From Natronohydrobacter sp. (GTDB taxonomy: Bacteria; Pseudomonadota; Alphaproteobacteria; Rhodobacterales; Rhodobacteraceae), in NCBI GenBank assembly GCA_020832555.1, contig JAFIEM010000010.1, positions 1 through 55,348 on the forward strand: a stretch of DNA of 55,348 nt, written 5' to 3'. Of this stretch, positions 18,721-54,264 are shown piece by piece (the stretch's first letter is position 1; each line of letters begins with the position of its first letter). Made by a program: the position numbers and the translations under genes. Below the pieces are notes generated by a model. It had not been told where the DNA came from. It did not search any database and worked only from the letters and a program-made list of their open reading frames with translations.

Positions 18721-19674
18721 ATGAGCTGGAACCCGACGCACACCCCCCAATGCCCCGGAATGGACAGCAGCGCGATCGAGACGCTGATCATTCCGCGCGC
18801 CCGCGATATCGGCGGCTTCGAGGTTCGCCGCGCGCTGCCCAGTCCCAAACGGCAGATGGTCGGGCCTTTTATATTCTTTGACGAGATGGGACCGGCCGAG
18901 TTCATCAACGAGGCGGGCATTGACGTGCGGCCGCATCCGCATATCGGGCTGGGTACTGTGACCTATCTCTATCAGGGAGAGTTCGAGCATCGCGACAGTC
19001 TGGGCACCCATCAGATGATCTATCCGGGCGAGGTGAACTGGATGATCGCCGGACGGGGCATCACGCATTCCGAGCGCACCAGTGCCGCAACGCGCCAGAC
19101 GCGCCACGGTCTGTTCGGTATCCAGACCTGGATCGCCCTGCCCGAAGCGCATGAAGACATGGCACCCGATTTCGAGCATCACGAAAAGACAGCACTGCCG
19201 ACCCTGACCGATACCGGCGTCACCGCGCGGCTGATCCTTGGCACGGCCTATGGTCGGCAAAGCCCGGTCACGATGCTGTCCGAGAGTTTCTATCTGGACG
19301 TACAGCTTGCACCGGGGGCCAGCTTCCCCTTGCCTGACGATCACGAGGACCGCGGGATCTATGTGTCGCAGGGCGAAATCGAGATTGCGGGCGATGTGTT
19401 CCCCTCAGGCCGCATGATGGTGTTCCGACCCGGCGACAAACTGTCGGCCAAGGCTGGTGCAGAAGGCGCGCGTCTGATGCTGCTGGGCGGTGCGACCCTG
19501 AACGAGCCCCGCTATATCTGGTGGAACTTCGTGTCATCGTCGAAGGACAAGATCATCGAGGCCAGCCGTGCATGGCATGCTGCCGATTGGCGGGAAGGCC
19601 CGTTTCGCTTGCCGCCGGGCGATGAAGAAGAGTTCATTCCGCTTGACCGGCAACCCGACGGGTCAAGGTTTTGA
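18721..19674 (+). CDS. Pirin family protein, second copy
   Basis: 317-aa pirin, longer than the neighbour. It has RRALPSPKRQMVGPFIFFDEMGPAEF, the metal-binding PHPHIGLGTVTYLYQGEFEHRDS and GRGITHSER, then the C-terminal pirin domain with WWNFVSSSKDKI and WREGPFRLPPGDEEEFIPL. AAGGAG lies before ATG 18721; the longer open frame to 18268 runs inside the first pirin gene and is not real. Probably co-transcribed with the first pirin. The two differ too much to be a recent duplication. Confidence 0.89.
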   Translation: MSWNPTHTPQCPGMDSSAIETLIIPRARDIGGFEVRRALPSPKRQMVGPFIFFDEMGPAEFINEAGIDVRPHPHIGLGTVTYLYQGEFEHRDSLGTHQMIYPGEVNWMIAGRGITHSERTSAATRQTRHGLFGIQTWIALPEAHEDMAPDFEHHEKTALPTLTDTGVTARLILGTAYGRQSPVTMLSESFYLDVQLAPGASFPLPDDHEDRGIYVSQGEIEIAGDVFPSGRMMVFRPGDKLSAKAGAEGARLMLLGGATLNEPRYIWWNFVSSSKDKIIEASRAWHAADWREGPFRLPPGDEEEFIPLDRQPDGSRF

Positions 19675-19727: not shown

Positions 19728-19808
19728 AAAAAGAAACCCCGCCTTGCCACGAGGGAGAAGCAAGGCGGGGCAGGGAGGAAATCGGGACGTCCGTCCCGGA
19801 CAGGAACA
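19728..19808 (-). ncRNA. Putative stress-induced small RNA (about 80 nt) with anti-Shine-Dalgarno motif
   Basis: Read on the minus strand, an exact EcfG-type promoter (19841-19816) is followed about 8 bases later by a short transcript region with no credible ORF. In order it holds a 6-bp hairpin CGGGAC-GGAC-GTCCCG (19798-19783), a single-stranded segment ATTTCCTCCCTG with the ribosome-site complement CCTCCC (19778-19773), and an 11-bp terminator stem CCCCGCCTTGC / GCAAGGCGGGG with a 12-base loop followed by TTTCTTTTT (19770-19728). This layout resembles alphaproteobacterial sRNAs with CCUCC loops (CcsR/cuckoo type). The ends are estimates. It lies between the second pirin (plus) and a PRC-barrel gene (minus) that has its own terminator upstream. 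Confidence 0.6.
19737..19770 (-). terminator. Strong rho-independent terminator (end of putative sRNA)
   Basis: 11-bp perfect stem with the T-run on the minus strand (A-rich on the plus strand, 19728-19736). It may also stop plus-strand transcription from the pirin genes, but the T-run orientation favours the minus strand. Confidence 0.85.
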
Positions 19809-19815
19809 AGGACAT

Positions 19816-19841
19816 AACGCCAAGCATCACAGACTGGTTCC
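19816..19841 (-). promoter_or_regulatory. EcfG-type promoter of the putative sRNA
   Basis: Minus strand GGAAC (19841-19837) and CGTT (19819-19816) spaced by 17 bases, an exact consensus match, placed downstream of the PRC-barrel gene terminator so that it drives an independent transcript. Confidence 0.7.
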
Positions 19842-19884: not shown

Positions 19885-19911
19885 GATCGGGCGGCATTCA
19901 GCCGCCCGATC
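19885..19911 (-). terminator. Terminator of the PRC-barrel gene
   Basis: 11-bp stem GATCGGGCGGC / GCCGCCCGATC with a 5-base loop, followed on the minus strand by CTTTTTC. It lies 37 bases after the PRC-barrel stop. Confidence 0.8.
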
Positions 19912-49331: not shown

Positions 49332-49637
49332 TCAAAGCTGGCAACTGGAGGTAATGACGACCGGAAAAAGCGTGAAAACCGTTGCCACCAGACCGATCCA
49401 CAGACCCGCGCGCGGTAATTGCGCCCGCAAGCCCACACCTTGCGGCACGGCACGAAACAGCGGCCAGAACGCGAGCAGACCAAGGCACCAAAGACCCATC
49501 AGTGTGATGCGCGCAGTCTGGCTTGTGCCTGACGGGCTCAGGCCATCCGCACAGATTATCCCATGTGCCGCATAGACGACCACAAAGACCACGGCCCAGA
49601 GTGTCGGCCCTGCCAGCATTGCCCCCAGCCACTTCAT
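49332..49637 (-). CDS. Small membrane protein, last gene of the cytochrome oxidase operon
   Basis: 101 aa with three predicted membrane segments (about residues 8-27, AGPTLWAVVFVVVYAAHGII; 45-64, ITLMGLWCLGLLAFWPLFRA; 80-98, AGLWIGLVATVFTLFPVVI), and Cys in the loop HGIICADGL and the C-terminal TSSCQL. ATG 49637 overlaps the subunit I/III stop in ATGA; the longer frame to 49724 runs inside that gene. I do not recognise the family by name. The paired Cys facing one side of the membrane might serve in copper delivery or oxidase assembly, which is speculation. Confidence 0.72.
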   Translation of the reverse strand: MKWLGAMLAGPTLWAVVFVVVYAAHGIICADGLSPSGTSQTARITLMGLWCLGLLAFWPLFRAVPQGVGLRAQLPRAGLWIGLVATVFTLFPVVITSSCQL

Positions 49638-52165
49638 GCGGCCCCCTGCTGCGCGATCAATGCAATGATGGTGACAAGGGTCGTGACCGTCGTGAAATCC
49701 TGCCAAAGCCGCCAATGAGGCCACGCTCCGCGCGCAAGCTTGTCGATCTCACTGCGTCGATGCTGGTCAAGCACAAAGGCCGCCATGCCGCATGCAACCA
49801 GCACATGTAGCCCGACATAGCCTGCCATGACAGCGCGCAGCGCGTCCCGGGCATGGGCAGTGGGATCGTCCAGCACGGGAAGAAGCCCTGCCAACAAAGC
49901 AATGAGTGCAACGCTGTTGGCCAGCAGACCCGTAAGCGCCCAGATCGGGGCCTCACCACGCACGGCGCCCATTCCCAGCAGCAACGCCCCGGCAACAACA
50001 ACCATCGTCCAGAGCGCACGCGTGGTATCCATCATGGCCAGCGGCGCGGGTGGGCCTTGGGTCACAACCGACAGGAACGCCAATCCGAACAGGACGGATG
50101 CAAATAGCGCCCCATTCGCCACCAGCAACGCCATCAGCCCGCTTTGCCCAAGACTCTGGCGGGCATGATGATGGACTGTCAGCGTCAGACCAGGCGCAAC
50201 CTCGATCCCGTCCAGCGCCCCGCGCGGCGCAAGACCACGCGCCCAGACCCATATGAGCACAGCCACGGGGATCAGTGCAGCGCCGGCCAAGGCATAAAGC
50301 CCAGCCAGCATCAACAGGACGAAAACCCCGATACTGCCCGAAAGCACAAATGGCAGCGCAGTATTGCCCGGCAGAAGAGCCACATGATCGGGCCTTGCGG
50401 CCCCGACGGATGTGACCAGAAACTCGCGCCGACCGCGCGGGGCACCGGGCAAAACGCCTTCGCCGCGCGCAAGCGCCAGCATCACCTCGTCTGCAGGCCG
50501 GTCGAGATGCCGCGCTGTGGGTTGCGAGGCAAAGTTGAAGTTCGGCGCAGGCAAGGGCATGGCCCAATCGAGCGTCGTCGCGCGCCAGGGATCGCGGCGC
50601 GCGCGCATGCCAAGCGTCATCTGCAACAGCATGTCCAGCGCGAACATGGCGAAACCGATGGTCATGGCGAAGCCGAAGATCGATGAGGTCAGGTTCAGCC
50701 AGATCCATTCGGGATTGTCCGGGTAGACATCAATCCGGCGCGGCATGCCCATCAGCCCGGTCAGATGCATGATGAAGAAGGTGCCATGAAACCCGATCAG
50801 GATGATCCAGAACGCCGCTTCGCCCAGCCCCCGGACCCGCGTCCGTCCGGTTATCAGCGGCATCCAGTATGTGATGGCCGCCATCATCGGAAAGACAAAG
50901 CCGCCGATCAGCACATAATGCAGATGCGCCGTGACAAAGGCCGTATCGTGCGCCTGCCAGTTGAACGGCACAATCGCCAGCATCACGCCCGTCAACCCGC
51001 CCATGACGAAAGTCAGGAAGAAGCCCAGGATGTGATACATCGGCAGATGCAGTTCTGGCCGACCCTTCCACATTGTCCCGATCCAGGCGAAGACTTGCAC
51101 CGCTGTTGGCACCGCCACCAGCACGGACGCCGCCGAAAAGAACGCAAGCGCCATATGCGGGATGCCAACAGTGAACATGTGATGCACCCACAACCCGAAG
51201 GACAGAAAAACCAGCCCCAGAATGGCTGCGACAATCGCGCCATAGCCAAGAATGCGTGTACGACACAGGATCGGAATGATCGTGGACATGGCACCTGCGG
51301 CGGGCAGGAAGATGATATAGACTTCCGGATGGCCAAACAGCCAGAACAGGTGCTGCCACAAAAGCGGATCCCCTCCGCGCTCCGGATCGAAGAATGGCCA
51401 GCCAAAGGCGCGCTCCAACTCCAGCAGCACCGAGCCCGCGATCAGTGGCGGAAAGCCCACCAGCATCATCACGCTGGTGCCGAGCATATACCACGCGAAA
51501 AGGGGCATTTCGGTCAGCTTCATCCCCGGCGCGCGCTGACGCAGGATGGTCACGGTAATCTCGACCGCCGCTGCAACAGCCGAAATCTCGACAAATGTCA
51601 CGCCCAGAAGCCAGACATCGGCATTGATACCGGGAGAGTAGGTAGCACTCGAAAGCGGCGTATACATGAACCAGCCATCCCGCGGCGCAACACCGAAAAG
51701 AAGCGCCGTCAGCATGATCAGCCCCCCGAACAGATAGCACCAATAGCCAAGCGCCGTCAGGCGCGGAAAAGCCATGTCGCGCGTGCCCAGTATCTTCGGC
51801 AGAAGCCAGATGGCCAACCCTTCCAGCATGGGGATGGCAAACAGAAACATCATGATGCTGCCATGCATCGTGAAGATCTGATTATAGAGTTCGGTATCCA
51901 GAAATGCACCGTCAGGGGTTGCAAGCTGCGCGCGAATGAGCATCGACAGGATGCCGCCAATCGCGAAAAACACGAAGGCTGTCGCCATGAAACGCAAGCC
52001 CAGCGTCGTGTGCGAAACAGAAGTAATCTGCCCCCAGAGCCCACGATCATTGGACCATACCGCGTCCATCTCTCGGTTCAGGGCCAATGCCCGCTGCGCT
52101 GGATTGCGGGGCAGATCGGCGGTCGCAATGCGCGCGGCGTCTGAGGGGAAGGTCGCGTCAGTCAT
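49634..52165 (-). CDS. Cytochrome c oxidase, fused subunits I and III
   Basis: 843-aa heme-copper oxidase. Residues about 20-545 are subunit I: heme ligand His in FTMHGSIMMFLF, D-channel Asp in GTRDMAFPR, the HPEVYI block with the Glu gate and the cross-linked Tyr (FWLFGHPEVYIIFLP), CuB His pair WVHHMFTVG, and heme ligands in AHLHYVLIGG. Residues about 600-843 are a subunit III-like set of helices (VHHHARQSLGQSGLMALLVANGALFAS). The position of the conserved K-channel Lys (VPTGIKVFSW in classical oxidases) is Gln here (VPTAVQVFAW). It overlaps subunit II by 8 bp. Reaction: oxygen reduction coupled to proton pumping. Confidence 0.9.
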   Translation of the reverse strand: MTDATFPSDAARIATADLPRNPAQRALALNREMDAVWSNDRGLWGQITSVSHTTLGLRFMATAFVFFAIGGILSMLIRAQLATPDGAFLDTELYNQIFTMHGSIMMFLFAIPMLEGLAIWLLPKILGTRDMAFPRLTALGYWCYLFGGLIMLTALLFGVAPRDGWFMYTPLSSATYSPGINADVWLLGVTFVEISAVAAAVEITVTILRQRAPGMKLTEMPLFAWYMLGTSVMMLVGFPPLIAGSVLLELERAFGWPFFDPERGGDPLLWQHLFWLFGHPEVYIIFLPAAGAMSTIIPILCRTRILGYGAIVAAILGLVFLSFGLWVHHMFTVGIPHMALAFFSAASVLVAVPTAVQVFAWIGTMWKGRPELHLPMYHILGFFLTFVMGGLTGVMLAIVPFNWQAHDTAFVTAHLHYVLIGGFVFPMMAAITYWMPLITGRTRVRGLGEAAFWIILIGFHGTFFIMHLTGLMGMPRRIDVYPDNPEWIWLNLTSSIFGFAMTIGFAMFALDMLLQMTLGMRARRDPWRATTLDWAMPLPAPNFNFASQPTARHLDRPADEVMLALARGEGVLPGAPRGRREFLVTSVGAARPDHVALLPGNTALPFVLSGSIGVFVLLMLAGLYALAGAALIPVAVLIWVWARGLAPRGALDGIEVAPGLTLTVHHHARQSLGQSGLMALLVANGALFASVLFGLAFLSVVTQGPPAPLAMMDTTRALWTMVVVAGALLLGMGAVRGEAPIWALTGLLANSVALIALLAGLLPVLDDPTAHARDALRAVMAGYVGLHVLVACGMAAFVLDQHRRSEIDKLARGAWPHWRLWQDFTTVTTLVTIIALIAQQGAA

Positions 52166-53317: not shown

Positions 53318-54057
53318 GCACGCTGATCCTGTCGCAACAATCGCCACGCAAGAAAGCCCGCCAGAACCGCTGCAGGTATCATGCCGGGAATCCACATGAT
53401 CAAGCCAGCCAGTTGCTGGTCTTGCGCCGCGCTCAGACCCCAGACCGGCGCATGGGCCAGATGCTCCAGATAGAAGGGGCCGGGCGCGAATGTCAGAAGC
53501 GCCCCCAACAGTCCCATTTGTGCGACGAGCGTCATCAGCCCGAGAACGGGTGCCGGGCTGCGATCCTGAAACAACGCGGAAAAAAATGCCCAGGCAGGCA
53601 GGATCAGAGCGACCTGCATGGCCCAGTAGACAGTCGCATCTTCCCATGCCGCAGAGTAGACCTGCGGAATATGCCAGGCCCAGAGCGCGCCAGACAAGGC
53701 GAGAAGCGCAAGCATGGCTGGAAGGCGACGCAAGGGGAAGGCGATGGCAAGCGCTGGGGCCAGAACGCCGATGACAACCAGATGATGCACTGTGCGCGCA
53801 GCGAAAAGCGCGACGCTGAGCGCACAAAGCGGGGAAATGAAAGCAAGAGTGGCGGCAAAGGCAGCAACTCCGAACCCGGCTTGCCGCGTCTTCTCGGCGC
53901 CACGCAGCACGAGAACGCCGCATGCGCCAAAAGCGAGAAATGCCCCCAGCAGGAACGGATCGTTGTTCCAACTGCCAAGCCAATCCATCGGCGTCGGCGG
54001 GGGTCCGCAATAGGGCGTGTCTGGCAGAGTCACAGCGATCATGCACCGACAACGCAT
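53314..54057 (-). CDS. ctaG: Cytochrome c oxidase assembly factor CtaG (caa3 type)
   Basis: About 247-aa polytopic membrane protein of PF09678, needed for copper delivery to caa3-type oxidases. It has PYCGPPPTPMDWLGSWNNDPFLLGAFLAF near the start, HHLVVIGVLAPALAIAFPL, ALWAWHIPQVYSAAWEDATVYWAMQVALILPAWAFF and GLIMWIPGMIPAAVLAG, the conserved family regions with His and Met for copper. First gene of the operon. The start may be ATG 54057 or ATG 54042 (MIAVTLPDTP); neither has a good ribosome site. No clear promoter was identified upstream. Confidence 0.88.
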   Translation of the reverse strand: MRCRCMIAVTLPDTPYCGPPPTPMDWLGSWNNDPFLLGAFLAFGACGVLVLRGAEKTRQAGFGVAAFAATLAFISPLCALSVALFAARTVHHLVVIGVLAPALAIAFPLRRLPAMLALLALSGALWAWHIPQVYSAAWEDATVYWAMQVALILPAWAFFSALFQDRSPAPVLGLMTLVAQMGLLGALLTFAPGPFYLEHLAHAPVWGLSAAQDQQLAGLIMWIPGMIPAAVLAGFLAWRLLRQDQRA

Positions 54058-54079
54058 TCATCCGGGAACGGTTCCAGAG

Positions 54080-54239: not shown

Positions 54240-54264
54240 AACGCTGGTATGGCTGTTTTGTTCC
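54240..54264 (-). promoter_or_regulatory. EcfG-type promoter of the membrane peptide gene
   Basis: Minus strand GGAAC (54264-54260) and CGTT (54243-54240), exactly 16 bases apart. It lies right after the terminator of the PRC-barrel gene, so it drives a separate transcript. Confidence 0.75.

Follow-up and report, generated by a model that had tools for sequence, protein, structure and literature searches.

The minus strand of the window, which is the whole 55,348-nucleotide stretch of Natronohydrobacter sp. DNA analyzed here, contains a conserved transcription unit that looks non-coding, a reading well supported at the sequence level, and there is hardly any doubt that the locus is a small RNA (sRNA) gene. 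The promoter and the genomes that carry the gene indicate that the sRNA is very probably controlled by EcfG, the sigma factor of the general stress response (GSR; PhyR-NepR-EcfG). The account favored as a whole, at a probability of roughly 0.65, is that of an EcfG-driven sRNA that would repress its targets through pairing with their ribosome sites.

The earlier note on this DNA had described a promoter-like motif, a 6-bp hairpin, an unpaired stretch, an 11-bp stem, and a T tract, and direct reading of the sequence from 19841 to 19728 on the minus strand finds all of these elements, each at its position (Table 1). The predicted RNA folds with -38.4 kcal/mol (z -4.7), which was equaled by none of 200 shuffles, and TTTCCTCCCT occurs once, in the right place, with 0.07 occurrences expected. 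In the fold of the window copy, CCUCCC lies in the linker and UCUCCCUC in the terminator loop, neither of them in the loop of hairpin 1. The neighbors are a pirin gene on the opposite strand, which ends at 19674, and an upstream PRC-barrel gene on the same strand; the latter has a terminator-like hairpin of its own, which makes it probable that the sRNA is transcribed separately.

Table 1. Features of the sRNA locus in the window and of NepR-like genes in related loci.
Feature	Position	Strand	Basis and remarks
Predicted sRNA, about 81 nt	19728..19808	-	5' end near 19808 predicted from sequence
EcfG-type promoter, GGAAC-N17-CGTT	19816..19841	-	-35 GGAAC 19841-19837; -10 CGTT 19819-19816
5' end UGUUCCU, unpaired, candidate seed	19802..19808	-	mean P(unpaired) 0.99 in the window
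Hairpin 1, 6 bp, CGGGAC/GTCCCG	19783..19798	-	folding
UUUCCUCCCU linker, single-stranded, anti-Shine-Dalgarno-like	19772..19781	-	folding
Intrinsic terminator stem-loop, second UCUCCCUCGU in the loop	19737..19770	-	folding, stem covariation; 11-bp stem CCCCGCCTTGC/GCAAGGCGGGG read directly
T tract TTTCTTTTT	19728..19736	-	sequence read directly
Terminator-like hairpin of the upstream PRC-barrel gene	19885..19911	-	11-bp stem, then CTTTTT
NepR-like second genes	L040:15346-15441, L041:14885-14971, L043:3441-3536		the one of G009 is below the Pfam cut-off

The assignment of the sRNA promoter to the EcfG type is well supported by its sequence, which agrees with the EcfG1 motif of R. etli (GGAAC-N16-CGTT) and with the reported sigma-T promoter elements of Caulobacter. 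GGAAC followed by CGTT, TGTT, or GGTT as the -10 element is present in 17 of the 18 sRNA copies compared, the remaining one, located at a contig end (G026), having no recognizable promoter. The pattern GGAAC-N16/17-CGTT occurs seven times in the 55-kb window vs. 0.71 times expected from shuffles. In the genome as a whole, 19 matches to the stricter GGAACC form stand against 29 for a reversed control pattern, so the motif alone is no evidence, and most of the genome-wide matches are probably due to chance. Five of these 19 matches are inside the window (binomial P 6e-6), and four of the five fall within 8.5 kb (P 8e-8, for a stretch chosen after the fact). The four clustered promoters precede csbD (11370), a cardiolipin-synthase-like PLD gene (14948), the gene of a 97-aa membrane protein (16319), and the sRNA; in several relatives, EcfG-type promoters precede the csbD, PLD, and 97-aa genes as well. 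The earlier attribution of the promoter to a general stress sigma factor thus held up, GGAAC-N17-CGTT lying directly upstream of the RNA in a genome that has PhyR, NepR, and an adjacent ECF sigma factor.

The genes between 11370 and 16701 form a stress island composed of csbD, a 119-aa protein, a holin-like protein just below the Pfam cut-off, a DUF2254 protein, an AI-2E family transporter, the PLD/cardiolipin-synthase-like gene, and the 97-aa membrane protein, which has no Pfam match. The island has three EcfG-type promoters, and similar gene sets are found in relatives. Two further EcfG-type motifs, at 54051-54075 and 54240-54264 on the minus strand, are located at and before the start called for a CtaG-like gene in the cytochrome oxidase cluster. 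Similar motifs precede the oxidase cluster in two related loci (L040, 9531; L041, 9141), which may place the oxidase in the stress regulon.

It is conservation, out of reach of the earlier note, that lifts the locus above chance. A BLAST search of 100 relatives gave homologues in four other genomes of the genus (G035, G021, G019, and G009; E 3.4e-10 to 7.3e-4); matches at E ≤ 1 were obtained in 61 genomes, and the others, which are short and were not inspected singly, were not counted as homologues. Further divergent copies were located with the 97-aa gene and a 99-aa gene beside COX1 as anchors. A covariance model (R1) was built from eight copies with the promoter included, seven from the genus (the window copy among them) and one from a Pararhodobacter sp., the one homologue outside the genus. 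At E ≤ 1.1e-11, R1 recovered the RNA at 16 loci in 14 of the 37 genus genomes, as G011 and G020 have second copies; seven of these 14 genomes, with nine loci, are outside the model (G001, G002, G011, G012, G017, G020, and G025). The expected conservation of promoter and terminator in related genomes is therefore borne out, the promoter being conserved in the model matches partly by construction because it was included in the model. At E ≤ 1, R1 matched 23 of the 37 genus genomes, from which the 14 and G026, a weak syntenic copy (E 6e-4) counted for its gene order, were retained; the remaining genus matches (E 0.0095 to 0.43) were dropped, with G004 and G024 inspected and rejected. A 19-mer terminator pattern added G023 and contig C59 of G026, both rejected on inspection.

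The 18 copies compared are the 16 strong genus loci, G026, and Pararhodobacter. In their terminator stems, 99.4% of the 180 cells are paired, and five of ten pairs show changes on both sides; such changes fill 20 of 180 stem cells vs. 4.6 in shuffles, in an alignment that was fitted to the stem. This count excludes an antisense match (L137), and locus L054 was not in the model because its terminator was misaligned, its RNA being counted as G011a. Roseinatronobacter thiooxidans ALG1 (L059) carries the gene, and records that plainly show the same loci bear the names Natronohydrobacter sp. (L052) and Roseinatronobacter (L056 and L059). In Natronohydrobacter thiooxidans AH01 (L053), the island is present and its 97-aa protein is close to that of the window, with no recognizable sRNA copy within the island. 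Two genomes have two diverged copies each (G011, L142/L156; G020, L143/L157), and no second copy was found in the genome of the window, which is 86% complete.

Across 295 genomes of the family, R1 with stricter filters had matches at E ≤ 0.1 in 12 genomes, the window's own included, and none outside the genus was convincing among the best three of the 11 other matches, which were inspected. Two of these three have no convincing promoter (G120, 2e-5; G157, 1.7e-4), and the third lies inside a gene (G167, 2.4e-3). A pattern of promoter plus 5' end matched five other genomes of the 295 vs. 15 matches for the reversed control, none of the five with a terminator. A scan of the assembled loci for EcfG-type motifs with a strong hairpin and a T tract no more than 150 nt behind them gave 15 places, of which 13 are this RNA. 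Judged from these searches, the sRNA appears only in this clade and in one Pararhodobacter.

The distribution of the gene follows that of the GSR. In the genome of the window, contig C112, which is separate from the contig of the sRNA, carries together the genes of PhyR, of an ECF sigma factor, and of a HisKA_2/HWE histidine kinase, and a reading frame for NepR lies between those of PhyR and the sigma factor; because of this phyR-nepR-sigma arrangement, the ECF sigma factor is taken as EcfG. Nineteen of 36 genus genomes have a NepR match at E ≤ 0.001, G036 being left out of the comparison. Among these 36, searched for both, a strong sRNA match is present in 14 of the 19 NepR-positive vs. none of the 17 NepR-negative genomes (Fisher 3.2e-6); the contrast is 9/12 vs. 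0/11 in the 23 good genomes (P 3.4e-4) and 7/12 vs. 0/17 in the 29 genomes outside the model (P 5e-4), all of these P values being too small since the genomes share ancestry. Every genus genome with a strong sRNA match thus has NepR (14/14), and NepR stands without a strong match in G015, G016, G026, G029, and G031. NepR matches in G000, G025, and G035 are below the Pfam cut-off, although in two of these genomes, G000 and G035, ecfG immediately follows the frame. The distance between NepR and the sRNA is 10-13 kb in G011, G012, G017, and G020 and 25-30 kb in G009 and G021. NepR was recognized in 139 of the 295 family genomes; the GSR thus occurs widely where no copy of this sRNA can be recognized. 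Separately, NepR-like second genes are found on the other strand between the PLD and 97-aa genes of G021, G009, and G019 (Table 1).

Within the RNA, the segment UGUYCC, which is mostly unpaired, follows the -10 element in 17 of the 18 copies, with a distance of 7 nt in 16 and of 8 nt in one, and it is the most conserved segment of the RNA. Transcription from ECF promoters starts a few nucleotides behind the -10 element, so UGUYCC is probably the 5' end. A hairpin is predicted at the place of hairpin 1 in all 18 copies, with varying sequence, length, and strength. CUCCC is found in 15 of 18 copies vs. 6.8 expected from shuffles (P 1.5e-4, with relatedness ignored). It is located in the hairpin-1 region of G019, G021, G009, and Pararhodobacter (mostly paired in the last two), in the linker of the window, G001, G002, G008, G010, G012, and G025, and in the terminator loop of G035, G011b, G020b, G026, and, as a second occurrence, the window. 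Three copies, G011a, G020a, and G017, are without it; in both G011 and G020, one copy lacks CUCCC and the other has UUUCCUCCCU in its terminator loop. CCUCCC had been put forward as the active segment, and this part of the earlier reading stands only halfway: CUCCC is kept in most copies, but it changes position, is absent in three, and is less conserved than UGUYCC.

With its short, pyrimidine-rich, unpaired 5' end, its CUCCC module, and its intrinsic terminator, the RNA has the look of an Hfq-type trans-acting sRNA, and ribosome-site pairing would be the simplest use of CUCCC. In the proposed mechanism, PhyR would draw NepR off under stress, EcfG would then initiate transcription at about 19808, and the RNA would end at its 3' hairpin. 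The unpaired UGUUCCU and the linker UUUCCUCCCU, together with CUCCC of the terminator loop, would then bind, probably with the help of Hfq, to purine-rich ribosome sites on the target mRNAs by base pairing, and the translation of the targets would mostly be lowered. EcfG by itself activates. The sRNA would give this stress sigma factor, as such an activator only, a repressing arm. The repression step taken for itself is slightly more probable than not. A fuller picture is offered tentatively, at somewhat under even odds: a lineage-specific, GSR-bound sRNA of Rhodobacteraceae with an invariant 5' UGUYCC, placed 7 nt behind the -10 element so as to begin the RNA, in which CUCCC has been selected for being unpaired, wherever it lies, and has hopped between hairpin loop, linker, and terminator loop with no loss of function, and which acts as the repressing arm of EcfG.

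Duplex energies computed between three unpaired segments of the RNA and some 50 gene starts from the window and locus L039, called crudely by script, established no target among these starts. Of the 41 gene starts called in this crude way in the window, only one has GGAGG or GGGAG in the 20 nt upstream, and the number of good ribosome-site targets may therefore be small. COX1 was considered and rejected as a target: GCGAGGGAC before its ATG looks complementary, but CGAGGGA is found at none of six other COX1 starts. AGGAGGG stands at two of these six, and any CCUCC could bind there.

The RNA was found to be below the threshold of every Rfam family. At the gathering threshold, Rfam returned nothing in the window or in seven of the loci; at E ≤ 10, a search of 301 bases of the window gave eight weak matches, the best being IR_84, sX13, and suhB, all far below threshold. 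The best match in equal-span searches of other loci, CRISPR-DR56 in L133 (23.2 bits vs. 35), is antisense and was taken as chance. No report of this RNA was found in the literature covered, which left most subscription journals outside its scope. The earlier proposal of a new sRNA is upheld by this and by the conservation of the RNA with its promoter and terminator. The RNA is best described as a putative new sRNA family of an EcfG-dependent functional class, most like GsrN and ReC64 in promoter and setting. ReC64 of R. etli is an 88-nt intergenic RNA with an EcfG1 consensus promoter and an EcfG1 dependence shown by experiment. It shares the EcfG-type promoter with the present sRNA and differs in its location behind phyR-tcrY.

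GsrN of Caulobacter crescentus is described as a sigma-T/EcfG-dependent sRNA by experiment, about 100 nt long, that takes part in the general stress response; counterparts of it are predicted in rhizobia, and its predicted homologues are typically near GSR genes. It resembles the present sRNA in its GGAAC/CGTT promoter, its pyrimidine-rich unpaired 5' part, and its 3' intrinsic terminator. The 5' part of GsrN alone is functional and activates katG, so an EcfG-dependent sRNA need not repress. The present RNA might likewise be an activator of the GsrN type, whose unpaired C/U-rich 5' part would bind mRNA leaders and raise the translation of a stress gene instead of lowering that of many mRNAs. 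This reading, which is considered rather unlikely, draws on the shared promoter type, on NepR lying within 10-30 kb in several relatives, and on the 5' end being the best-conserved RNA segment here too. Against it, GsrN has an exposed C-rich 5' loop that is not seen in the present RNA, whose exposed, pyrimidine-rich UGUYCC end is unstructured. A further difference from GsrN is that CUCCC of the present RNA moves between structural positions. The BLAST matches given for GsrN in the accessible text are confined to Caulobacteraceae, and no RNA of Rhodobacterales is named there.

Membership in the alpha-r8 family, which would make the RNA its Rhodobacterales representative, is improbable. This family, with MmgR of S. 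meliloti and SisA-D of C. crescentus, is defined by the 10-mer UUUCCUCCCU in the part of the source available (PMC12559287). The window copy is like alpha-r8 in having a hairpin, the exact 10-mer in a single-stranded stretch, and a terminator, and the weak suhB match (RF00519) lies over this stretch. That match has 18.0 bits vs. a gathering threshold of 41, suhB is not listed in four homologues searched over the same 301-base span at E ≤ 10 (G019, G010, G001, and G011b), and the 10-mer is present in three of 18 copies, in the linker of the window and in the terminator loop of G011b and G020b, and absent in the other 15. The RNA was therefore not filed under alpha-r8. A search of 13 homologous loci at E ≤ 1 also returned nothing from Rfam, over a span 150 times larger in which an 18-bit suhB match would not be excludable. 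SisA-D are described as lacking a conserved promoter motif (PMC12559287), in contrast to the EcfG-type motif here.

The gene order raises another alternative. At 15 of the 18 loci, the sRNA is oriented toward the 99-aa gene located after COX1, which can be as close as about 10 nt; in one of them, G017, another gene lies in between; G026 keeps this order, and G011b and G020b are located behind the PLD gene. Such an arrangement could suggest a cis-acting antisense or convergent element of the COX1/99-aa gene mRNA, which is nevertheless very improbable: the window sRNA is intact some 30 kb from COX1, with no second copy in its genome, and a terminator alone would leave the conserved promoter and 5' end unexplained. 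The window copy is alone at the pirin/PRC-barrel site. With the 99-aa gene and COX1 at 49341-52165 and the sRNA at 19728-19841, this genome has been rearranged here. The conserved 98-99-aa protein after COX1 (49341-49637) has no Pfam match and is present in 17 of the 295 family genomes; inspection of 19 loci around this neighbor (L114-L132) revealed no comparable unit of promoter and RNA.

CcsR of Rhodobacter and the cuckoo RNAs of rhizobia are stress-linked alphaproteobacterial RNAs with CCUCC segments, cuckoo RNAs being defined by two hairpin loops, each with CUCCUCCC. The likeness to them that the earlier note had drawn does not carry over to membership, which has a faint chance at best. 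CCUCCC is unpaired here, and some homologues combine a copy in the hairpin-1 region with UCCCUCG in the terminator loop; in the window, however, CCUCCC is in the linker and not in the loop of hairpin 1, and the two-loop arrangement is not present. CcsR1-4 of Rhodobacter sphaeroides, in the accessible description, are four copies in a row behind a DUF1127 gene in one operon with an RpoH promoter, whereas the present sRNA is a single copy with an EcfG-type motif directly upstream, pirin and PRC-barrel neighbors, and no DUF1127 co-transcription; CcsR is excluded because of operon and copy number, and GsrN and ReC64 are closer. A chance pairing of a terminator with a promoter-like motif without function, or a short hidden ORF, has a negligible probability: the promoter motif alone is not significant genome-wide, GTG/TTG codons are present in all 18 copies (three inside the predicted window transcript), and two TTG-start ORFs cross the region, but conservation, covariation, and gene order speak against it, as do the absence of ATG from the predicted window transcript and of any ATG frame common to the 18 copies.

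To our knowledge, little has been established outside Caulobacter and rhizobia about the downregulation of genes in the general stress response of Alphaproteobacteria. The general stress system has hardly been studied in Rhodobacterales; a 2018 paper on Rhodobacter sphaeroides states that the stress role of PhyR had until then not been analyzed in any member of the order. EcfG-dependent sRNAs such as GsrN and ReC64 were known already, and what is new here is the sRNA family. The host belongs to the Roseinatronobacter group, and many relatives with the same stress system carry the sRNA gene. The RNA is therefore a candidate for a repressing arm of the EcfG response in these bacteria, one that comes with an exactly predicted promoter, 5' end, and seeds.
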